From assembly GCF_000307105.1 (NCBI RefSeq), contig NC_018645.1, positions 3,061,501-3,125,500 on the forward strand: 64,000 bases of DNA, given 5' to 3'. The position numbers and the translations under genes are program-made. The stretch is from Desulfobacula toluolica Tol2 (GTDB lineage: Bacteria > Desulfobacterota > Desulfobacteria > Desulfobacterales > Desulfobacteraceae). Shown piece after piece: positions 2,428 to 13,338 of this stretch. Each line of letters starts with the position of its first letter. Position 1 is the stretch's first letter. The notes under the pieces are model-generated. The model was not told the origin of the DNA. It saw nothing but the letters and a program-made list of their open reading frames with translations, and did no database searches.

Positions 2428-2645
2428 GTGCGCCACGAAGCGCAATTTAGTCTAACTGGTGAAAGTCCAGTCTCAAAAGTGCTGACCCAGTACATTGAGT
2501 ATCGAGCGAGTCTTGGGCGGGTGTCAGGTGACTGCACTCGTTAAGCGTAGACAGAGAGTCTGTAGACCGGAAGCCGAAAGGTTGAAGTGATTGAGTCCCG
2601 TTAAGACCCTAATTTAAGAGGGCTGATGATTTCGTGGTGTCAGGT
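2428..2645 (+). ncRNA. Possible 5' fragment (domain I) of a group II intron
   Basis: The stretch opens with GTGCGCCACGAAGCGC and continues with AACTGGTGAAAGTCCAGT, which resembles the start and the domain I region of bacterial group II introns. No reverse transcriptase ORF or domain V follows; the sequence passes instead into a GGTGTCAGG...GGGGTCGGACC repeat. It is therefore at most a remnant, and its sequence differs from the two fuller introns in this window. The flanks repeat GGGGTCGGACC (2415-2424 and 2653-2663 regions). Confidence 0.4.
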
Positions 2646-2725
2646 AAAATGGGGTCGGACCAAGGATGTTTTTGTAACTATTTGTTTTCAAGAGATAAAA
2701 TCTTTCGAAACCCTTAAAAATTGCT

Positions 2726-2765
2726 CTTAGCGGCCCCATTTTGACCCCGAAATGGGGCTTCTAAG
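2726..2765. repeat. 40-bp palindrome CTTAG...CTAAG, copy 1
   Basis: CTTAGCGGCCCCATTT and AAATGGGGCTTCTAAG form a long imperfect hairpin without a T-run. A second copy lies at 17692-17731, where it overlaps the grpB stop codon. Confidence 0.5.
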
Positions 2766-2792
2766 AGAGAATATCAACAATATCATCAAATC

Positions 2793-2838
2793 TAACAACA
2801 AAAATGCTACGGACTTCGCCGCAGATTTTTTGTTCATT
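2793..2838 (+). other. attC-like recombination site (short type) left of the ubiquitin-like island
   Basis: AAC (2797-2799), then AAAATGCTACGG / CCGCAGATTTT arms and a GTTCATT right core (2832-2838). It has the same arms as the sites at 401, 20310 and 28706. The bases before AAC (TCTAAC) do not match any visible cassette start upstream. Confidence 0.55.
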
Positions 2839-2946
2839 AATGATGGCAAGCCATCAGGATTAAAATCATGGGAAAAAGCAACCGATTAAAGTGACTGTGG
2901 AAAGCCGGATGCTTCCCTGGCCAAAAAACTTCTTGTCAGAATCGTT

Positions 2947-3414
2947 TTAGCCTGCCGACTTAAAACCAAAGAAACGGGCGAGAATATCCAGGAATTTGTC
3001 AATCATAGATTTAGACTTTGTATCCTGTGATTGCCTTGCGGAAGAATTGAGCTCCACTCCAGTGGCATCATTTTGCTCATAATGATTTGCTTTATGGACT
3101 CTATCCAAAATTCGGCCAGAAGCGATGGCTTTCTGGGACATACCTTGGGCCCACACTATCCTGTTTTTCTGAATAAAATAATGGGAACGACATAAATAAC
3201 TCCAATTCCCAATGGAAGGTGATAAGGACACGCTTTCACCGTCGAATGTCAACTTCCAGTCAGTTGGTGTAAATGGCGTAACAACCTCTTGGCCACAACC
3301 ACAGGCACATTTATGAGATGCGGTGGCGTATTCCATGGAAATATAGAGAACTCCTTCCTGAAGTTTTTCAGGAATATACTCTTTGAATTGCACGTTGAAC
3401 TGTTTAATCCGCAT
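2947..3414 (-). CDS. DUF6527-family zinc-binding protein of ubiquitin-like operon
   Basis: This 155-aa protein shows the Cys pattern HKCACGCGQEVV at residues 34-45 and a later YLCRSHYFI, a likely C-x-C-x-C...C-x2-H zinc site. The combination with PSIGNWSYLCRSHYF is what I know as DUF6527, a family found beside ThiF/E1 and multi-ubiquitin genes in bacteria. Its biochemical role is unknown to me; a treble-clef/RING-like or deubiquitinase-linked accessory has been suggested for zinc proteins in such operons, and that is inference here. Its start overlaps the end of the E1 gene by 11 bp, which indicates translational coupling as the third gene of the minus-strand operon. The last 30 residues are a basic helical tail (DKFLDILARFFGF). 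Confidence 0.75.
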   Translation of the reverse strand: MRIKQFNVQFKEYIPEKLQEGVLYISMEYATASHKCACGCGQEVVTPFTPTDWKLTFDGESVSLSPSIGNWSYLCRSHYFIQKNRIVWAQGMSQKAIASGRILDRVHKANHYEQNDATGVELNSSARQSQDTKSKSMIDKFLDILARFFGFKSAG

Positions 3415-4588
3415 AATATTTTTCGTCCGTTTCTAAAAGGGCACAATTGGTGGAATATGTTAAGTGATGCTCTCCTTCCAAATCTTGATAAAACTCGCTG
3501 AGCTGCTTCCACTTAATAACGGCTAAACTCGCGTTAAGAGCGTTGAGTTCAACAATTTGGATATTGCTTGCATACTCTTGGCCATCAATATCATCGCCCA
3601 TCGAAACACGACAGGGAATGTGGTCATTTTTATTTTTGCTGCCGGTTGTTACCCGGCAAGTTCCCAAAAGCATTTGATCCACAAGCTGTACATCCATCCC
3701 TACGTCAATAACGACGGTATCAGTTGTTAAAAGAATGTCCATAATGCTCTTCTTGCAGCTGCCACCATCGACACAAAGAAATACATAATCAAAACCCTCC
3801 AATTCAGAGACAGTTTCTTTTGTGATCATATGGGAACGAGGGATGATGCCTTCACGCATACGAGAATATACTTGGAAAAAATAGCTCACCTTTCGATTTT
3901 TTTGCCGCAAATCATCAAGAGATGCAGCACCTGGAGCCCTAAAGGCATTGTGAGACTGAAAATCATCCGCATCGAAAAGATGTATTTCTCTAACAGGTGT
4001 TTTTGCCACATAGTCAAGGACATATGCACCAGTTCCACCGAGCCCAACGATGGCAATGCGCTGAGAGCCCAGCTTTTCTGAAACGGCCTGGATCCCCGCC
4101 CGGCTTGAGGCTGTGTCTATGTACTTAAAGACAGACTCATCGGGTGTTGCCTGGATAGGTTTGAATGTTCGTGGATCAACACTAGGATCTATAGCCTTAG
4201 CCGGATGGGAAATAATTTTTATATATTGCGTTATTTTTTCATAGTGATCTGCATAACCGGAGCTGGGTTTATTTGAAAAGGAATGTTCAGCAGAAATGCC
4301 ATCAGCCAAAATTTTTTTAGCGCTATTATGCCGAATCTGTTGGATCTGTGTACCGTTATGAGTGCACGGATATTCGCCTTTAAAATAAATAACATGGGTT
4401 TTCGGCTTTACTGTAAGATCTCCTGACAGAGACAGCTCTGAAATGAGAGTGCCTACTTTCACCTCTCGATTCTCGTTAACGTAAGGGACCGAGTGGACCA
4501 ATATATGCCCACTCCGAATCTCAATCTCGTAACCTTGGTCTCGCAACCGTTTAAGGTCTTTATTATGATTTATCAGTTTTTGTGACAT
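3404..4588 (-). CDS. E2-like (DUF6791)-E1 (ThiF) fusion, ubiquitin-like activating enzyme
   Basis: The C-terminal half is a ThiF/MoeB/E1 adenylation domain: RIAIVGLGGTGAYVLDYVA (nucleotide-binding glycine motif at 181-186) followed by LFDADDFQSHNAFRAPG, the usual E1 strand and Asn/Arg region. By family precedent it would adenylate the C-terminus of the Ubl encoded upstream. Residues 1-150 form a separate domain with GEYPCTHNGT at 71-80; Cys75 is a candidate E2-like thioester cysteine, as proposed for DUF6791-type N-terminal domains. Several cysteines (272, 278, and one in GTCRV) could be the E1 catalytic Cys; I cannot tell which. The gene starts 26 bp inside the Ubl gene, so the two are translationally coupled. 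At 394 aa the E2+E1 architecture is complete. Confidence 0.85.
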   Translation of the reverse strand: MSQKLINHNKDLKRLRDQGYEIEIRSGHILVHSVPYVNENREVKVGTLISELSLSGDLTVKPKTHVIYFKGEYPCTHNGTQIQQIRHNSAKKILADGISAEHSFSNKPSSGYADHYEKITQYIKIISHPAKAIDPSVDPRTFKPIQATPDESVFKYIDTASSRAGIQAVSEKLGSQRIAIVGLGGTGAYVLDYVAKTPVREIHLFDADDFQSHNAFRAPGAASLDDLRQKNRKVSYFFQVYSRMREGIIPRSHMITKETVSELEGFDYVFLCVDGGSCKKSIMDILLTTDTVVIDVGMDVQLVDQMLLGTCRVTTGSKNKNDHIPCRVSMGDDIDGQEYASNIQIVELNALNASLAVIKWKQLSEFYQDLEGEHHLTYSTNCALLETDEKYYAD

Positions 4589-5240
4589 TGATGATCATCC
4601 TATTTTTAAGCATGACAGACTGGCCCTCGACAAGGCTTCCTTGCGGATTCTGGTTCGGTCCATTTTTGTAAACCACCGTGAAAATTGTTTCAGGGGCTGG
4701 TTCTGCATCGGGGAAGGCGAGTTTAACGATCTCAAGAAAGGACAATGACCGCTTATTAACAACACGGGGTCGCCCATTTACGATGATTGTCAATTCGATT
4801 TGAGTTGTATAAAAACGCTCAACACCGGGCTCATCGAGACGAACGTGTTCTGTGTCGTCAATAATCTGATCCTGACCCTGGCCGTGAACATCAAGCCATA
4901 CGTCAAAAACGTTGGAGTTTACTCCAGCGAATCGTTTGAGCATACGCCCGGTTATTTCTGGTGCACCCCACTCAAATCGTCTTCCATCAACGGTGAGACG
5001 ATATGACTCTCCGCTTCTGAACGTCTTGAACCGTTCAAGGCCAGGCTGTGTCAGATCTACGCTTTCCTCAAGACGTATTTCTTCAAACTGCCCGTTTTTC
5101 AACCTTTGAAAAATCAAGTATTCATCCAGCGGATGCTTGCCGGTGGTGGTTAGAAGTTGAGTTCCAGTTACAATTGGATCGGTAAAAGGGAATTTTTTCC
5201 CATCGATTTTTACTTGGTAACTCTCTTTAACTTTATTCAT
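4563..5240 (-). CDS. Multi-ubiquitin-like protein with three tandem beta-grasp domains
   Basis: The 225-aa product contains three consecutive repeats. Repeat 1 (about 8-72) opens SYQVKIDGKKFPFTDP and ends PGLERFKTF. Repeat 2 (about 76-144) opens SYRLTVDGRRFEWGAP and ends PGVERFYTT. Repeat 3 (about 145-225) opens IELTIIVNGRPRVVNKRSLS. This matches the Multi_ubiq family of bacterial ubiquitin-like proteins. The C-terminus reads NVTKTDKS, with no Gly-Gly, so conjugation would need another terminal residue or processing. A GAGGAG ribosome site precedes the ATG. It is the first gene of the Ubl-E1-DUF6527 operon and is divergent from the sigma-like gene across a 152-bp gap. Target and function are unknown; related operons are linked to phage defence or self-assembly. 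Confidence 0.85.
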   Translation of the reverse strand: MNKVKESYQVKIDGKKFPFTDPIVTGTQLLTTTGKHPLDEYLIFQRLKNGQFEEIRLEESVDLTQPGLERFKTFRSGESYRLTVDGRRFEWGAPEITGRMLKRFAGVNSNVFDVWLDVHGQGQDQIIDDTEHVRLDEPGVERFYTTQIELTIIVNGRPRVVNKRSLSFLEIVKLAFPDAEPAPETIFTVVYKNGPNQNPQGSLVEGQSVMLKNRMIINVTKTDKS

Positions 5241-5392
5241 GATTATCTCCTCAATTTTGTACTGCAGGGTTGCAAGTACGTTTATATTCTTATAGATTTA
5301 TGCTCCAGGGACGGACAGCGCGGACAACGAAAATAAATAAATGTCTGAAGCTTACACTGGTGGAGCATTTATAATATAGAAGGACACATTTG
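5241..5392. promoter_or_regulatory. Divergent control region between Ubl operon and sigma/M78 operon
   Basis: This 152-bp gap must hold promoters for both operons. It contains an inverted pair TTATGCTCCA (5298-5307) and TGGAGCAT (5361-5368, continuing TTATAA), which could be two half-sites of an operator seen by both promoters. Ribosome sites are GAGGAG for the minus gene and AGAAGGA for the plus gene. Promoter -10 boxes cannot be assigned with confidence. Confidence 0.45.
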
Positions 5393-5980
5393 ATGCTTAG
5401 TAACACCAAAAAATATTTGACACCTTTGGAGATTGGAGAGTCGATAGAAAGGCTATCTGATGCGGATTGGATGCGGCTTAAAAAATTTGCGGCATGGTTT
5501 TCCAGAAAATGTGGGTTGCCTGAAGAAGACATCCTCCAAAAATCATTTGAAAAAGCATTAGATGGATCACGAAAGTGTCCTATAGATGTGAAAATCATGA
5601 GTTTTTTATGGCAGACGATGAGAAGCATTGCTTCAAGCAATGCCAAGTCGTACATGCGGAACCCGACAGTCAGCCTGCAAAATCTTAAATACGAAAACGG
5701 AAGTGATCATCAAGCGGATCTGAAGGATGACGTGAAGCCAGAAACGGAGGCTGCTATAGTTGCAAGAATGGACCTGGCTAAGGTTAAAGAAATTATTCCC
5801 CAGTTATTCGAGTCTGACCCTGAACCAGTACAGCTTCTTGTGATGGGAATTTTGGACGAAATGGATACGGATGAGCTCAAAGAATTCTCAGGCCTGAATG
5901 GTAAGAAATATTACTCAGCACGACGACTGTTCAGAAGGCGTGTCGAAAAAAAATTCCCAGGAGGGTATGGTAATGAGTAA
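5393..5980 (+). CDS. Sigma-70-family (ECF-like) sigma factor
   Basis: The ATG at 5393 follows AGAAGGACAC. Residues about 30-85 resemble sigma region 2: a GLPEEDILQKSFEKAL segment, then a SFLWQTMRSIASSNAKSYMR segment similar to the DNA-melting and -10 recognition helices. Residues about 145-190 resemble region 4, a helix-turn-helix (TDELKEFSGLNGKKYYSARR, then RVEKKFP). There is no obvious extracytoplasmic or anti-sigma coupling. The gene heads a tight three-gene operon with a small acidic protein and an M78 peptidase, divergent from the Ubl operon. It may drive transcription of the Ubl genes or of its own operon; that is inference. At 195 aa it has the usual length for a group IV factor. Confidence 0.7.
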   Translation: MLSNTKKYLTPLEIGESIERLSDADWMRLKKFAAWFSRKCGLPEEDILQKSFEKALDGSRKCPIDVKIMSFLWQTMRSIASSNAKSYMRNPTVSLQNLKYENGSDHQADLKDDVKPETEAAIVARMDLAKVKEIIPQLFESDPEPVQLLVMGILDEMDTDELKEFSGLNGKKYYSARRLFRRRVEKKFPGGYGNE

Positions 5981-6380
5981 TCACAACAAAAAGCCAAATG
6001 ACATGTTTGAAATAATATTAGAAGATATCCGTGAAGCTACGGATGAAGAGATCCTAAACGAGGCAATTGAAGATGGTATTGATGTAAAATCAGAAGTTCA
6101 AAAAATGAAATCCTTTTTTGAAAAATGCAGATACAACATCGCAAAAAAAATGGTTAATGAAAAAGACTCTCCTGAAAACAAGCCATCTCGCCCGGTTAGC
6201 ATAGAAGACGCTCGCAAAAAAATTGAGACCGCCGTTAAAAACAATCCAGAAAAACTTGGAGAATTCACCCTGGCAGCTCGCTCTGGCAAAGACATCCCGG
6301 ATGAGGATATTTTGGGACTCTATGACGATCTTTGCGACTTGGATGTTTTTGATGAAGACGAATCTTCGGATAAAAAATAA
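5973..6380 (+). CDS. Small acidic hypothetical protein between sigma-like gene and M78 peptidase
   Basis: The ATG at 5973 overlaps the sigma-like gene's stop by 8 bases and lies about 9 bases after GGAGGG (5959-5964); an alternative ATG at 5967 is too close to that site. The 135-aa product is highly charged and helical, ends in an acidic tail (DLDVFDEDESSDKK), and has no signal peptide. I do not recognise a family. In other sigma or repressor operons that pair with M78 peptidases, the intermediate small protein is often a regulator or cleavage target, so an anti-sigma-like role is possible but unproven. Its stop codon overlaps the next start by one base. Confidence 0.65.
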   Translation: MSNHNKKPNDMFEIILEDIREATDEEILNEAIEDGIDVKSEVQKMKSFFEKCRYNIAKKMVNEKDSPENKPSRPVSIEDARKKIETAVKNNPEKLGEFTLAARSGKDIPDEDILGLYDDLCDLDVFDEDESSDKK

Positions 6381-7198
6381 TGCCTGAAACGTGTGCTGAG
6401 CAAATTATTTTACAAAGAGGTATTGCAACGCCTGAAGATATTAACCTTGAAGCCATTGCATCAACACTTGGAGCAAAGGTCAAAAGACGTTTTCTTGCCG
6501 GGTGCGAAGCACGGATCATTGGGAGTGGTAATCGCGCTGTAATTACAGTTAACCGAAGTAACAGTGAAGAGAGGCAACGATTTTCTATTGGCCACGAGCT
6601 TGGACATTGGCAGCGTCACAGAGGTCAAAATTTTCAATGTTCAAAGGACGATATTGGAAATTTTAAAAATTCGTCTAAAAAAAAAGAACGGGAGGCTGAT
6701 CAGTTTTCTGCTGATCTTCTTATGCCCTGGTTTTTGTTCAAGCCTATTGCAGGAGAGTTTGAAAATGCAGATTTTAATACTGTCCTTGAATTAAAGAAAC
6801 GCTTCAAGACAAGTGAGAGTGCCACTGCATTAAGACTGATTGAGAGTGGCATTTTCCCAGCAATTTTAATTTGCCATGACCAGAATAAGCGTCAATGGTT
6901 CAAACGATCAAACGATATACCTCGAAATTGGTTTCCCCAAGACAATTTGTCTCCTGACAGTGTTGCCTTTGATATAGTTTATGGAATGGCCGAAAGTGAC
7001 ACCAGTCAAATGCAAGTCAAGGCGGCTGCCTGGTTTGATCGCAGGGATGCTGAGCGATACGAGATCTTAGAACACTCCATCTCATACGGTGAAGGGACAT
7101 CGCTTACGCTACTTGAATTTTTTGAGGCTGATATGCTTGAGGAATACGAAACAACGGAAGCACCAAGAGGGTTAGATGCCTTTAAATGGAAACGTTGA
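6380..7198 (+). CDS. ImmA/IrrE-family (M78) metallopeptidase
   Basis: The protein carries the zinc-binding motif SIGHELGHWQRH, with His72, Glu73 and His76, and a downstream EREADQFSADLLMP helix (around residues 103-116) supplying the third ligand, as in the M78 ImmA/IrrE family. These peptidases cleave repressors or anti-regulators after a stress or phage signal. The remaining 150 residues form an extra C-terminal domain I do not recognise. The start overlaps the stop of the small acidic protein (TAATG), so the operon is coupled. The obvious candidate substrates are the neighbouring small protein, the sigma factor or the Ubl/E1 proteins. All of these are inference from gene order. Confidence 0.85.
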   Translation: MPETCAEQIILQRGIATPEDINLEAIASTLGAKVKRRFLAGCEARIIGSGNRAVITVNRSNSEERQRFSIGHELGHWQRHRGQNFQCSKDDIGNFKNSSKKKEREADQFSADLLMPWFLFKPIAGEFENADFNTVLELKKRFKTSESATALRLIESGIFPAILICHDQNKRQWFKRSNDIPRNWFPQDNLSPDSVAFDIVYGMAESDTSQMQVKAAAWFDRRDAERYEILEHSISYGEGTSLTLLEFFEADMLEEYETTEAPRGLDAFKWKR

Positions 7199-7263
7199 CT
7201 CCTCTCGGGTGATCGGAGAAGGGGTATCGGGTGGAGGGTCAAACCTTGCTCATTGCCCTTAAA

Positions 7264-7314
7264 AATCAACAATCAATCTGCACCGGATTTCACCTGTGCA
7301 GATTGTCGTTCATG
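7264..7314 (+). other. attC-like recombination site right of the ubiquitin-like island
   Basis: AAATCAAC (ending 7270) and GTTCATG (7308-7314) cores enclose a perfect 9-bp stem, AATCTGCAC (7275-7283) and GTGCAGATT (7296-7304). Confidence 0.6.
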
Positions 7315-7410
7315 GCGGCTTCACCACCATGAATATGGCGCTGCCTTCGTCCAGCCCCTGATCTAGCGCCTTGCGCCAAGAACCAGGAACTGAACCGATC
7401 ACCGCATTAG
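7309..7410 (+). repeat. Decayed ORF-less cassette, copy D, cut by IS3
   Basis: It starts GTTCATGG (7308-7315) and reaches the near-complement CCATGAAT (7327-7334), then follows the large attC of copies A-C with many substitutions. The IS3 element is inserted at 7411; the sequence resumes after the TTAG duplication at 9163. Confidence 0.55.
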
Positions 7411-7475
7411 CCCCCTGTGTCAGGATAGATGTCGCCTCAATTAAAAATTAAATTTGGGGCATTGAGGTGATAAAT

Positions 7476-7964
7476 ATGGGATATTCTATTCAATTAAAAG
7501 AAGCTGTGTTAAAAAAGGTGTTACAGGGAAACAAACCCCACCATGAAATTGCAAAAGAATTAGGTGTTGGCCGGTCTACAATCGGTAAATGGTTAAGAGA
7601 ATACAAACAAAACGGAAGCATAAAATTGAAATCAAAAGAAAAACGCCCCAAAGACTGGACAGCCGAAGAACGTATTTCAGCAATAATTAAAACAGGTTCC
7701 ATGACTGCTGACGAACGCACTGCCTGGTGCCGCAAAAATGGTATTTTTATCCATAATTTGGACCAGTGGAAAAAAGATGCCATATCAGCAATAATCCCGA
7801 AGGCGAATAAAGAACAAATTGAAGAGTACAAAAATCTTAAAAAAGAAATCGCTGCTCTAAAAAAAGACCTGTCCCGTAAAGACAAAGCTCTGGCAGAAAC
7901 AGCAGCCTTGCTGGTTCTTAAAAAAAAAGCCCAGGAAATCTGGGGGGAGTCAGAGGACGATTGA
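7476..7964 (+). CDS. IS3-family transposase OrfA (helix-turn-helix)
   Basis: The 162-aa product begins with a helix-turn-helix (HHEIAKELGVGRSTIGKWL) and ends in a leucine-zipper-like helix, the standard OrfA design for binding the IS ends. The ATG at 7476 is preferred over a GTG at 7467 because GAGGTG sits at a good distance from it. Near its end a run of nine A residues (about 7919-7927) could promote the -1 frameshift that makes the OrfAB transposase. Its stop overlaps the OrfB start TTG. It is nearly identical to the minus-strand copy at 47757-48245. Confidence 0.85.
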   Translation: MGYSIQLKEAVLKKVLQGNKPHHEIAKELGVGRSTIGKWLREYKQNGSIKLKSKEKRPKDWTAEERISAIIKTGSMTADERTAWCRKNGIFIHNLDQWKKDAISAIIPKANKEQIEEYKNLKKEIAALKKDLSRKDKALAETAALLVLKKKAQEIWGESEDD

Positions 7965-9016
7965 TCAGTCAAGAAGACAAAAAAACTGTGTTGAAATTGA
8001 TTTCAGAGGCCTGTAAATCAGGGGCACGAAAAAGCAAGGCAGCCCAATTATTGGGACTGACCATTCGAACCCTTCAGCGGTGGAGCAAAAATGGCCTATT
8101 GGACAGCCGAAAAGGCTCCCGAGCCGACCCTGGTAACAAATTGTCTGATGATGAAAAGACCCGGATAGTCAATGTATTAGAGTCGCCTGAATTTGCTGAG
8201 TCCAATCCAAATCAGATCGTACCAAGACTTGCTGACCAGGGAATTTATCTGGGTTCTGAATCAACCATGTACAGAATTCTTAGGGACTTAAAAATGAATA
8301 AACACCGTCAATCCAGTCTTCCCGCAAAAAGGCACAGTCCTGATCCATTGATTGCAAATGCCCCGAACCAGTTGTGGAGCTGGGACATAACGTATTTGCC
8401 GTCAACAGTAAGGGGCAGGTTCTTTTACCTATATATGGTGATGGATTTATACAGCCGAAAAGCCGTGGCATGTCAAGTTTATGAATATGAATCCGGTGAT
8501 TTGGCAGCTGAACTGATAACGGATGCCTGCAATCAAGAAAAAATTTCAGAAGAACAAGTCACCTTGCATTCTGATAATGGATCTCCCATGAAATCTGCCA
8601 CCATGCTGGCAAAGCTTCAGGATTTGGGAGTTATTCCCTCATTCAGCAGGCCCAGTATCAGCAATGATAATCCATACTCAGAGTCATTGTTCAGGACATT
8701 AAAATATCGACCGGAATATCCGGACAAACCATTTGAAAATCTATTTGATGCCAGAGAATGGGCAAATCGTTTTATTCATTGGTATAATAAGGAGCATCTG
8801 CATAGCGGCATTAATTATGTCACTCCGGAAGATCGACACAACGGCAGGGATATACAAATCCTTAAAAATCGTCATCATGTGTATCAGAAGGCTAAAACGA
8901 AACATCCTGAAAGATGGTCAAAAAAAACAAGGAACTGGAAACCCGTTACAGAGGTTGTTTTAAAAAGATTTAAGAAGGTAAAACAATCCACTGATACGGC
9001 AAAGAGGGCTGCATAG
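7961..9016 (+). CDS. IS3-family transposase OrfB (DDE integrase)
   Basis: This 351-aa protein has the rve integrase fold with the IS3-type DD(35)E triad: Asp142 in LWSWDITYLP, Asp205 in LHSDNGSP and Glu241 in NPYSESLFRTLKY. An N-terminal helix-turn-helix (residues about 22-42) precedes the HTH_21-like region. The start is a TTG overlapping the OrfA stop, so expression is by coupling or by frameshifting from OrfA. The frame is intact and near-identical to copy 3, which suggests recent activity. Confidence 0.9.
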   Translation: MISQEDKKTVLKLISEACKSGARKSKAAQLLGLTIRTLQRWSKNGLLDSRKGSRADPGNKLSDDEKTRIVNVLESPEFAESNPNQIVPRLADQGIYLGSESTMYRILRDLKMNKHRQSSLPAKRHSPDPLIANAPNQLWSWDITYLPSTVRGRFFYLYMVMDLYSRKAVACQVYEYESGDLAAELITDACNQEKISEEQVTLHSDNGSPMKSATMLAKLQDLGVIPSFSRPSISNDNPYSESLFRTLKYRPEYPDKPFENLFDAREWANRFIHWYNKEHLHSGINYVTPEDRHNGRDIQILKNRHHVYQKAKTKHPERWSKKTRNWKPVTEVVLKRFKKVKQSTDTAKRAA

Positions 9017-10886: not shown

Positions 10887-11048
10887 TTTAAAACATCTAT
10901 TTTCCGGTTAGAATTATTCTTCCATATTCTTATCGGACCAAGTCAATATACTGAAAATATTAGATAAAGAACTAAAAAAACTTTAAGAATTGGCTTGGGA
11001 TAACGTTTTTGACCCAAAAAACAGCACCTTAAGAATTTAAATACGGGG

Positions 11049-11110
11049 TCCCAACAATGCTCTTGCTACGGGTCGCAAACAGCCGCGACCGCAGAAGAGC
11101 AACGTTCCAG
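11049..11110 (+). other. attC-like recombination site after the NADAR gene
   Basis: TCCCAAC (11049-11055) and GTTCCAG (11104-11110) enclose an imperfect palindrome with GCTCTT and GGTCGC on the left arm and GCGACC and AAGAGC on the right arm. Several unpaired bases sit in the left arm, as expected for attC. Confidence 0.6.
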
Positions 11111-11259
11111 GCGGCTGCGCCGCCTGGAACGCGGTGCTGACTTCGTCCAGCCCCTGGCCCCGGCGCCTTGCGCCGGAACCAGGGGCTGGACCGGTCACCG
11201 CACACCGCACAATCAAACTTCGTTTGCTTGTACGGCGCACGGCGCCGGTCAGCACCGCG
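11105..11259 (+). repeat. 155-bp ORF-less integron-type cassette, copy B
   Basis: It is near-identical to copy A. The start TTCCAGGCGG is complementary to CCGCCTGGAAC ending at 11130. The attC arms AACGCGGTGCTGAC and GTCAGCACCGCGTT are intact. The next right core is GTTATGTG (11259-11266). Confidence 0.75.
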
Positions 11260-11407: not shown

Positions 11408-13338
11408 ATCGGGATAGGACCCCCCATCACTGAGGAGCCCTCCCACACCACCGGACATACGGATCGCGTATCCGGCGGTTCGGCTGATCAGGCAGATTAG
11501 TTCCCGGGCAGAAATAATCCAAGAGAAAGGAAATATTTGTTTGGCAGAGCCATGACAACCCATTTAACCCTGCTCATGCGCCAGTGTTTCTTGCGGGAAT
11601 TTCCGCAAGTGACGGCATATTGAAACGGTATGCCTCGTTTAAGCAGGTTCCGGATTTTCGTTCCGGGATTTTTCCACTGTTTCCATACAACACATCTCAA
11701 GCGGCGGATAATCCAGCCGTTCAAGGACTTGAATATGTGTCTTGCTTCGGTGAGACAGTAATAATTCCACCATCCCCTGATGTACATATTCAATTTATCA
11801 ATGATCTGGGGAAGACTTAGACCACAGTTCCGGTTTGTTAATTCTCGAACCCTTTCTTTGAAGCGCTCGATTGTTTTCCGGTGTATGCGGATCTTGGTCT
11901 TGCCGCACATACTGATAAATGTGTAGCCGAGAAATTTGTCCAGCCATGGTCGGCTGACCTTGCTTTTCTCTTCATTGACCTTGAGCCTGAGCTTTACGGT
12001 TATAAACCGTGTAACACTTTTCATAACACGTTCGGCCGCTTTCTTGCTCTTGAGATATATGACAAAGTCATCAGCGTATCTGACAAATTTATGCCCTCTT
12101 TTCTCCAACTCTTTATCCAGTTCATCCAAAACGATATTTGAAATCACTGGTGAAAGAGGGCCGCCTTGAGGAGTTCCTTCAGCGGCAGATACAACCACCC
12201 CGTCGATCATGACACCGGCTGTTAAGTAACTTCGGATAAGCTTGAGAACCCGCTTATCCTTTATTCTTTCAGCCAGACGGCTCATGAGGCGGTCATGGTT
12301 CACTCTGTCGAAAAATTTGGAAAGATCCATATTAACAGAGTGTGTATATCCTGAGAGCAGATAAACTTTGCCTTGGAGTATGGCATCATGCTGGGATCTT
12401 CCAGGTCTGAATCCATGACTGGACTCAGAAAAATGCGGGTCCCATATTTGCTGCAATATCTCGCTGACGGCTTGCTGGATCAAACGATCCAAAACTGTTG
12501 GAATGCCGAGCAGTCTTACTCCGCCATCGGGTTTAGGAATTTCTTTCCTTTTCACCGGTAATGGCTTGTAGTTTCCCTGCAGCAACTTTCCCTTAACTTT
12601 GGGCCAGTGGCGTCTGAGGTAACCCGGTAGTTGATCAACGGTCATGTTGTCGATTCCAGGTGCCCCTTTGTTGCTACGGACCCTTTTTAATGCTCTGAAC
12701 ATGTTTCCCCTTTCAAGGATAAACTCCATGAGTCGGGAACTTTCTGTCGGACTTTCGGTGATCTGTAACGCTGTGAACATTTCCATCTGCTGTGGCAATA
12801 TGTCCATAAGTATACACCTCCTATTTGTCTCTATCATTTACCCGTACCATTCGGTCCGGGCACCGTTCGGGCCTTCACCGGGGTGAGTCCTCCGTGGAAT
12901 TCACGGCTCGTTTTCCTGCGGCTACTATGCCCTCTGCTGACTTCTTCCATGCGGTCGGAGCAGGTTACCCTGCCCTCAGCCAATTTCTGCCGCACGCGGC
13001 ATCCCAGGGCAGCATGGAAGATCTCCCGGGGTAAAACACACGTCTTTCAATACGTGGGTGCCGAGTATACGGACATTGCCTATAATGGATAGAGGACTTT
13101 ACCTTGTGTTGCAGGCTCGTCCCGCAAATGCACGCCTAACTCGATTTCTGTACGTCACCCCGTACTTTTGTGCCACTCCGCCTCGGCGAAGCCACTGCCT
13201 TCCGGAGTACCGTCACCGGGACCCCGTTGTGATAACACTATGCCCTTCGCCTCCATCTGGCTGGGCTTGGGACTTGCCTTGACTTCCATAAAGGAAGATG
13301 CAGGCTCACCCTTAAGACGTGTGCCGTGCCCGGCACAC
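11408..13338 (-). mobile_element. Group IIC-like intron 1 (1931 bp), inserted in an attC
   Basis: Read on the minus strand, the intron starts GTGTGCCGGGCACGGCAC at 13338 and ends CCTATCCCGAT at 11408. A domain-V-like stem (GAACCGCCGG...CCGGTGGTGTGGGAGG) lies just before the end. It encodes a maturase/reverse transcriptase without an endonuclease domain, typical of class C. It interrupts an attC between CACAT and AAC, in reverse orientation to the cassette genes, as known group IIC-attC introns do. Confidence 0.85.
11497..12807 (-). CDS. ltrA: Group II intron reverse transcriptase/maturase
   Basis: The start at 12807 (MDILPQQM) follows AGGAGGTG; an upstream ATG is less well placed. The 436-aa protein has the RT blocks in order: KGAPGIDNMTVDQLP, the HGFRPGRS block, MDLSKFFDRVNHDRLM, EGTPQGGPLSPVISNI and the catalytic FVRYADDFVIYL. 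The maturase GIIM-type domain (RGWWNYYCL) closes it. There is no HNH endonuclease, which agrees with class C introns that use single-stranded or hairpin targets. The intron homing and splicing roles are standard for the family. The ORF is intact. Confidence 0.9.
   Translation of the reverse strand: MDILPQQMEMFTALQITESPTESSRLMEFILERGNMFRALKRVRSNKGAPGIDNMTVDQLPGYLRRHWPKVKGKLLQGNYKPLPVKRKEIPKPDGGVRLLGIPTVLDRLIQQAVSEILQQIWDPHFSESSHGFRPGRSQHDAILQGKVYLLSGYTHSVNMDLSKFFDRVNHDRLMSRLAERIKDKRVLKLIRSYLTAGVMIDGVVVSAAEGTPQGGPLSPVISNIVLDELDKELEKRGHKFVRYADDFVIYLKSKKAAERVMKSVTRFITVKLRLKVNEEKSKVSRPWLDKFLGYTFISMCGKTKIRIHRKTIERFKERVRELTNRNCGLSLPQIIDKLNMYIRGWWNYYCLTEARHIFKSLNGWIIRRLRCVVWKQWKNPGTKIRNLLKRGIPFQYAVTCGNSRKKHWRMSRVKWVVMALPNKYFLSLGLFLPGN

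Follow-up and report, generated by a model that had tools for sequence, protein, structure and literature searches.

Controllers of immune-type operons

The classical CapP peptidase cuts the helix-turn-helix (HTH) repressor CapH, and CapH+CapP controllers of CBASS (cyclic oligonucleotide-based antiphage signalling system) and ubiquitin-like Bub operons were reportedly described by Lau et al. in 2022. The present analysis concerns a stretch of 64,000 nucleotides of Desulfobacula toluolica Tol2 (NC_018645.1, positions 3,061,501 to 3,125,500), hereafter the window, in which a Bub-type operon is faced by a divergent operon encoding a sigma-like protein, a small acidic protein termed X and an M78 metallopeptidase of the CapP type. 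Judging from gene order, conservation and promoter-like sequences, this second operon is probably a sigma-factor version of the CapH+CapP controller, in which CapP would cut X, a predicted anti-sigma factor, and the freed sigma factor would fire the promoters of both operons.

How costly immune operons are silenced and switched on is an active question. In one account, CapH+CapP pairs control CBASS and Bub operons, CapP is a protease activated by single-stranded DNA (ssDNA) that cleaves a repressor, and CapW, CapH+CapP and CapK+CapS all act through DNA-binding repressors (PMC13373217). In the Calp system of type III CRISPR, the protease CalpL, the anti-sigma factor CalpT and the sigma factor CalpS act together (PMC12751052).

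Organisation of the locus

A preceding sequence-only reading had placed six genes in two divergent, coupled operons facing each other across 152 bp, and the open reading frames (ORFs) and their overlaps agree with it. Both operons are tightly packed, and the gap between them spans 5241-5392. The minus strand encodes, in order, the Multi_ubiq protein, the DUF6791-ThiF E1 and the DUF6527 protein; the plus strand encodes the sigma-like protein, X and the M78 peptidase, for which ATG starts were taken (the program-made ORF list gives longer frames for sigma, from a TTG at 5390, and for X, from an ATG at 5898). Neighbouring genes overlap by 26 bp (E1/Ubl, where Ubl is the ubiquitin-like protein), 11 bp (DUF6527/E1), 8 bp (sigma/X) and 1 bp (X/M78). 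The features are as follows.

2947-3414, minus strand: DUF6527 protein, 155 aa (PF20137, E=2e-25)
3404-4588, minus strand: E1-like activating enzyme with DUF6791 and ThiF domains, 394 aa, PRK06153 family (PF20590, E=3e-62; PF00899, E=1e-12; NF004805, E=3e-171)
4563-5240, minus strand: multi-ubiquitin-like protein, 225 aa, three Multi_ubiq domains (PF14452, E=8e-66, three stretches)
5299-5326, minus strand: predicted sigma-dependent promoter of the Ubl operon, TGTCCG-N14-GGAGCATA (exact pattern match; mirrored pair conserved in relatives)
5342-5369, plus strand: predicted sigma-dependent promoter of the sigma-X-CapP operon, TGTCTG-N14-GGAGCATT (exact pattern match)
5393-5980, plus strand: putative sigma factor resembling the extracytoplasmic function (ECF) type, 195 aa (profile against the PDB, Sigma70_r2, structure model)
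5973-6380, plus strand: protein X, 135 aa, acidic, all-helical, predicted anti-sigma factor (structure model; AAR motif)
6380-7198, plus strand: CapP-type M78 metallopeptidase with an HELGH motif, 272 aa (PADLOC capP, E=3e-66; Peptidase_M78, E=3e-17)

The left operon is of the Bub type. The triple Ubl, E1 and DUF6527 expected on one strand are recovered as three Multi_ubiq domains, DUF6791-ThiF and DUF6527 by Pfam, and the ubiquitin-like domain protein and the E1-like ThiF enzyme belong to the same operon. The Ubl gene matches only itself in its own 5.2-Mb genome. ThiF followed by DUF6527 also stands after the Multi_ubiq gene in loci L022, L025 and L111, and the complete arrangement of the window, with Ubl-E1-DUF6527 facing sigma-X-M78, recurs on a Pontibacter plasmid (L025) and, with an extra E2 gene, on a Paracoccus plasmid (L020). 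The Ubl of locus L129 has a very similar tail (TDKS) and the same 26-bp overlap with E1 (4563-4588 in the window), and because tail and overlap are shared, conservation of the tail may partly reflect the overlapping E1 start.

A conserved sigma-X-CapP triad

A tblastn search of plasmids found the sigma protein on 29 plasmid records and the M78 protein on 104, and regions were taken from 28 plasmid records, two of which (L008 and L023) came without a gene table. A genome collection with one genome per species (84,980 species) was searched with a profile of triad-type M78 proteins, which returned 359 relatives, the best 80 of which were analysed as loci. The sigma, X and M78 genes follow one another in this order on one strand in 76 of these best 80 of 359 loci, a figure that describes this subfamily and not CapP at large, because the best 80 are the most query-like. 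ORFs showed the triad in 72 of the 80 loci, and correction of start sites with stop-to-stop frames brought the number to 76; three of the four exceptions (L027, L041, L075) are cut by a contig edge at their start, and the fourth, L084, has M78 alone. The hosts are mostly Alphaproteobacteria, together with Beta- and Gammaproteobacteria, a few Desulfobacterota-like metagenome-assembled genomes (MAGs) and two Acidobacteria-like MAGs (L037, L104), and the Bacteroidota plasmid L025 also carries a triad. To judge from this conservation, the triad is a portable module whose grouping goes far beyond chance. The X and M78 frames of triads L059 and L076 look intact, and by eye the DNA upstream in L059 resembles an inserted transposase gene.

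For the counts below, 88 loci were kept, the window included. Two copies from the window's own genome (L001, L002) were left out beforehand, as were six loci judged by hand to be duplicates. Over the final 150 residues of sigma and M78, L072, L073, L079 and L098 each match a kept locus exactly; in L005 sigma is identical but the X and M78 frames are broken; and L105 is only 68% (sigma) and 75% (M78) identical to L099, which made its exclusion unnecessary. L103 was also excluded, the start of its sigma gene lying no more than 200 bp from a contig edge.

With classes assigned by profiles derived from a small number of annotated plasmid genes, and by hand for eight loci, the divergent side is a Bub operon in 18 loci, CBASS in 17, an E2-E1-JAB+MBL-like operon in 7, Pycsar in 5 and E1-JAB in 3, so that the triad faces a recognised immune-type operon in 50 of the 88; small DUF2188/DUF3892/sm92 proteins alone are found in 26 loci, and 12 are unclassified. 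Among the hand-assigned loci, the proteins of L052, L055, L064 and L080 were scanned directly, for L104 the scan covered its ThiF protein only, and L065, L087 and L096 were placed by gene sizes alone. In L017, an insertion of the IS21 type lies between sigma and the small genes counted as its partners. Opposite the triad of L080 lie genes for a CD-NTase, a Cap15-domain protein and an AbiTii protein, and L087 is similar by gene sizes. In L099 and L105 it faces a 314-aa protein, followed in L099 by an OsmC-YcaO protein; this unexpected partner could be either a novel effector or a neighbour by chance. The small DUF2188/DUF3892/sm92 proteins recur beside controllers of both the HTH type (L112, L114) and the sigma type (the 26 loci above).

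Exchange with HTH+CapP

Five plasmid loci with a more distant M78 protein were chosen for comparison, and in all five an HTH gene replaces sigma and X at the same divergent place. These HTH+CapP loci face Bub (L022, L111), CBASS (L113), DUF3892 genes (L112) and DUF2188 plus TIR (L114). When 57 M78 proteins of the sigma type and 14 of the HTH type are placed in one tree, a split (support 0.96) unites all 14 of the HTH type with a single sigma-type protein, that of L025.

The frequency of the two forms differs when multi-ubiquitin loci are sampled regardless of their regulator. The 385 genomes of the class to which the L034 Caulobacter belongs hold 12 such loci (11 above the family cut-off), eight with HTH+M78 (the M78 match being weak, E about 1e-4, in L182 and L191), four with neither and none with sigma. 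The 395 genomes of the window's phylum hold four: two with HTH+M78, one with HTH only, whose contig ends nearby, and one with sigma, the window itself. HTH+M78 is the common form in these samples and the sigma version is a minority alternative. The sequence-only reading had named a consistent lack of sigma/M78 neighbours beside homologous Ubl operons as an outcome that would refute it; most multi-ubiquitin loci sampled do lack sigma, which 0 of 12 and 1 of 4 carry and which is not a constant part of Ubl operons.

A sigma profile hit at least 41 of the same 385 genomes at 1e-5 and at least three with E below 1e-30, both counts being lower bounds with eight candidates scored per genome. Of the three strongest genomes, G395 and G721 carry X and M78, G395 being the genome of L034 and hence not independent; in G759 the X match is weak, and no M78 lies close by. 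Among the 395 genomes of the window's phylum, the window is the only match to the sigma protein, and viral contigs gave no confirmed match.

The three proteins of the proposed controller

Among PADLOC models, capP fits the M78 protein best and matches it over nearly its full length; for comparison, the M78 protein of L113, where a classical HTH CapH gene accompanies CBASS, reaches E=3e-78 with the same model. The closest solved relative is 7t5t, deposited as 'CapP toxin' (E=2e-8). The HELGH motif supplies the HExxH expected of CapP, and its residues H72, E73 and H76 are invariant among 17 sequences. On these matches, the peptidase of the window is a CapP. A reading of the protein as a generic ImmA peptidase was dropped given the PADLOC match.

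The sigma-like protein has no Pfam match on its own. Compared with the PDB, a profile of 17 sequences, among them the window's own, finds ECF sigma factors (SigH, E=5e-4), eight of the 17 match Sigma70_r2 at a lenient limit of E<=1 (best 3e-4), and some relatives carry a sigma-70 family annotation. The structure model (mean predicted local distance difference test, pLDDT, 86.5) shows helical domains at about 11-97 and about 119-187 joined by a linker, which may be read as sigma-2 and sigma-4.

X is modelled as all helix (pLDDT 84), and it matches no Pfam family above cut-off and no HTH family. Its C-terminal part contains A101-A102-R103, invariant in 42 aligned sequences; AAR lies within the last 60 aa of X in 84 of the 88 loci, and the other four have an arginine in a similar setting. 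In three plasmid sigma loci lacking M78 (L014, L018, L019), X is reduced to its N-terminal part and the AAR part is lost. Such loci accord with a division of labour in which the N-terminal part would hold sigma and the C-terminal part would answer to CapP. The same three loci face an rRNA adenine methyltransferase gene and have facing TGTCYG sites; they possibly represent a sigma/anti-sigma pair under another signal. In L015 (7053-8489), a multi-ubiquitin/sigma/X locus, the third gene encodes a 478-aa protein in place of M78, with no Pfam family above cut-off and no PADLOC hit. Direct homology between X and CapH was raised by weak hits of the PADLOC capH model (E=0.021 for the window's X, whereas four genuine CapH proteins score 2e-21 to 2e-33) and is not claimed, the profile-profile comparison being negative.

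A predicted mirrored promoter pair

Comparison of the 88 regions upstream of sigma reveals a nested inverted repeat consisting of two face-to-face promoter-like units, each with a TGTCCG hexamer followed at 17-18 nt by GC(A/C)T; 15 bp separate the two facing hexamers of the window. In 60 of 88 loci, the 230 bp before sigma contain facing TGTCYG sites, compared with a mean of 0.19 and at most one of 88 in dinucleotide shuffles, and facing hexamers with a GC(A/C)T -10 element on both sides occur in 49 of 88, compared with 0 in shuffles subjected to the same site selection. As controls, 230 bp inside the M78 genes gave facing sites in 0 of 88 loci, and 0 of 13 HTH+M78 intergenic regions (five plasmid loci and eight from the genome sample) passed. 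The operon of the sigma factor itself is preceded by one of these predicted promoters of -35/-10 type.

Some of the loci that fail this strict test carry variant hexamers on both sides, namely TTTCYG in L064, L081, L096 and L132 (of G721) and TGTCGG in L023 and L104. A broader hexamer pattern is passed by 72 of 88 loci, compared with 3.5 in shuffles, and in a set of 57 non-redundant loci it finds facing sites in 45; the CapH-type locus L022 also passes it, without -10 elements. Facing TGTCYG sites are present too in the five sigma loci without M78 (L014, L015, L016, L018, L019). The exact pattern of the window has two matches elsewhere in the genome, both inside coding frames, and a regulon that takes in further genes was therefore not upheld.

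The sites were picked by regular expression, which partly fixes the conserved TGTC and GC letters by construction, and the two sides of each locus were compared with this selection also applied to the null and with spacings sought only between 14 and 22 nt. Under these conditions, the -10 word common to both sides of a locus averages 6.3 nt, compared with 3.0 nt when sides are shuffled among loci, and none of 20,000 shuffles was as high. In 53 loci parsed on both sides, similarity of the immune-side promoter tracks sigma identity (r=0.38; Mantel test, 0 of 5000). Pairs with different immune operons and sigma factors at least 45% identical match at 12.7 of 14 promoter positions (31 pairs), compared with 10.6 of 14 for pairs with the same operon type and sigma factors less than 30% identical (148 pairs). 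By this measure, the -10 words follow the sigma factor and not the type of immune operon.

Proposed mechanism and alternatives

The circuit put forward in the sequence-only reading, in which the M78 enzyme frees a sigma factor to turn on Ubl conjugation, appears to be the likeliest mechanism. The identity of CapP, the portable triad, the matching promoters and the presence of HTH+CapP in the same place speak for it; cleavage, binding of X to sigma and the signal are what we infer. In quiet cells, X would bind and silence sigma. An infection or DNA-damage signal, probably ssDNA as reported for CapP, would switch on CapP, which would then cut X, most likely in or near the conserved C-terminal AAR segment. 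The freed sigma factor would bring RNA polymerase to the two face-to-face promoters, whose recognition is suggested by the co-variation above; one would amplify the sigma-X-CapP operon, and the other would turn on the immune-type operon across the gap, which in the window is Ubl-E1-DUF6527. Where the classical CapH+CapP pair lifts repression, the sigma variant would add an activator with positive feedback.

Several results weigh against this sigma/anti-sigma/CapP circuit. Two of the 76 triads have shortened sigma frames (77 aa in L059 and 132 aa in L076). Facing TGTCYG sites are missing from 28 of 88 loci, some of which show nothing recognisable with either pattern, and only 10 of 18 Bub loci pass the strict pattern. 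Foldseek comparison of the sigma model gives leading matches that are mostly sigma factors, the best of which is not significant (E=0.096). X has no PDB relative and no known anti-sigma fold by Foldseek; the capH model is weak and inconsistent across X proteins (12 of 18 members reach E<=1, one being a genuine CapH), and a profile comparison of X with five CapH proteins found nothing. In L015, X is full-length although no M78 can be recognised in its vicinity, and in L016 sigma is followed by an unrelated small protein unmatched by the X profile. Finally, the label 'immune' is itself unproven for the left operon of the window, because protection against phage is, according to PMC13373217, not demonstrated for Bub operons.

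An unlikely, though not negligible, alternative is that X is an activator, chaperone or co-factor of sigma and that CapP cuts X or sigma to switch the operon off after the event. The M78 gene lies in the sigma operon, as a negative-feedback component would, and X is without a recognised anti-sigma fold. However, HTH+CapP holds the same place beside the same kinds of operon, cleavage of a repressor by ssDNA-activated CapP, as described in PMC13373217, amounts to an ON switch, and the three M78-less loci that keep the N-terminal part of X alone are as expected if this part acts on sigma and the rest is the protease target.

It is rather improbable that the mirrored sequences are instead an operator for a DNA-binding repressor or activator, whether this is the 'sigma', binding DNA as an ordinary regulator would, or a regulator of the host. 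Dimeric operators typically have inverted halves that co-vary, so the co-variation would also be expected of a mirrored operator for a dimeric regulator, and the similarity to sigma factors is weak. However, in 36 parsed loci the hexamer-to-core distance within a half is 17-18 nt (standard deviation 0.5), as suits -35/-10 elements, and the gap between halves varies from 6 to 33 nt (standard deviation 7.5); fixed spacing of the elements with a variable gap therefore argues for two promoters read by one sigma factor, not for one dimeric operator. Some relatives are, moreover, annotated as sigma-70 family, and the profile matches ECF sigma factors.

That the triad is a self-contained stress or plasmid-maintenance module landing beside immune operons in defence islands is very improbable: many relatives are on plasmids, 38 of 88 loci face only small proteins or unclassified genes, and few multi-ubiquitin loci of the genome samples carry it (0 of 12 and 1 of 4), but a matching promoter half lies on the divergent side in 49 of 88 by the strict test, and the partners are immune-type operons of five sorts in 50 of 88.

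If the sigma/anti-sigma/CapP circuit operates as outlined, it would control by activation with the same protease at its core, and its promoter signature would be searchable and would predict the operons under control; the unclassified partners (12 loci) and the 26 loci with small DUF2188/DUF3892-type proteins would then be candidate defence genes. We tentatively suggest, with appreciable doubt, that the triad is a portable self-amplifying switch, with a mirrored promoter plugged into at least five kinds of immune-type operon, which may be inducible despite a phage block of the housekeeping sigma factor. If true, a dedicated sigma factor would drive the immune genes, which would therefore be inducible, and latched by positive feedback, when a phage blocks or diverts the housekeeping one.

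Neighbouring DNA

The sequence-only reading also took the locus for a mobile island marked by attachment-like sites at 2793 and 7264. This finds no support: when 2600-7600 was scanned for repeats, no direct repeat joined the two positions, and attachment sites flanking an island were not found. In the same scan, 7261-7278 pairs only weakly with 5109-5126. ARAGORN found no tRNA genes in the window. Directly downstream of the CapP gene, 7467-9016 holds two coupled ORFs that we take to resemble an IS3-type transposase pair (IS, insertion sequence), the minus-strand ORF 11497-12837 presumably resembles a group II intron reverse transcriptase, and a stretch near 2389-2650, assessed by eye, is presumably similar to an intron remnant. 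A GC-rich intergenic repeat of the CAGCCCCTGG...CCAGGGGCTGG type apparently recurs at 384-653, about 7330-7400 and 11029-11255, with similar spurious ORFs (by eye).

Comparison with known systems

No description of a sigma-X-CapP controller was found in searches of open-licence PMC papers, and an earlier description in Lau 2022, Gong 2025 or Ye 2026 is possible; in PMC13373217, none of the nine mentions of 'sigma factor' or the eight of CapP or CapH pairs a sigma factor with CapP. The portable regulators CapK+CapS and CapW also stand beside Bub and other immune-type operons but consist of a kinase with a STAS repressor or of a WYL repressor, with neither a sigma factor nor a protease (PMC13373217).

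Calp appears, by analogy, to be the nearest precedent found for protease/anti-sigma/sigma control in immunity. In both, a protease, an anti-sigma factor and a sigma factor would act in series to launch antiviral transcription, as is reported for Calp (PMC12751052). According to the same paper, CalpL combines a Lon protease with a SAVED sensor that responds to cyclic tetra-adenylate (cA4), whereas the window encodes a CapP-type M78 protein, which in Pfam and PADLOC matches M78/capP and not Lon or SAVED.

With Bub operons, the window shares Multi_ubiq, the DUF6791-ThiF E1 and DUF6527 in coupled order. Its conjugation genes look ordinary and the operon is of a known kind; the novelty lies in the controller, with CapP-based control in which a probable activator replaces the repressor. 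With CapH+CapP, it shares a CapP-family M78 gene divergent from immune-type operons and overlapping partners (Bub, CBASS, DUF3892, DUF2188), but the window has no HTH CapH directly upstream of CapP, where sigma and X stand instead, and the sigma-type triad has a predicted divergent promoter pair of the sigma type.

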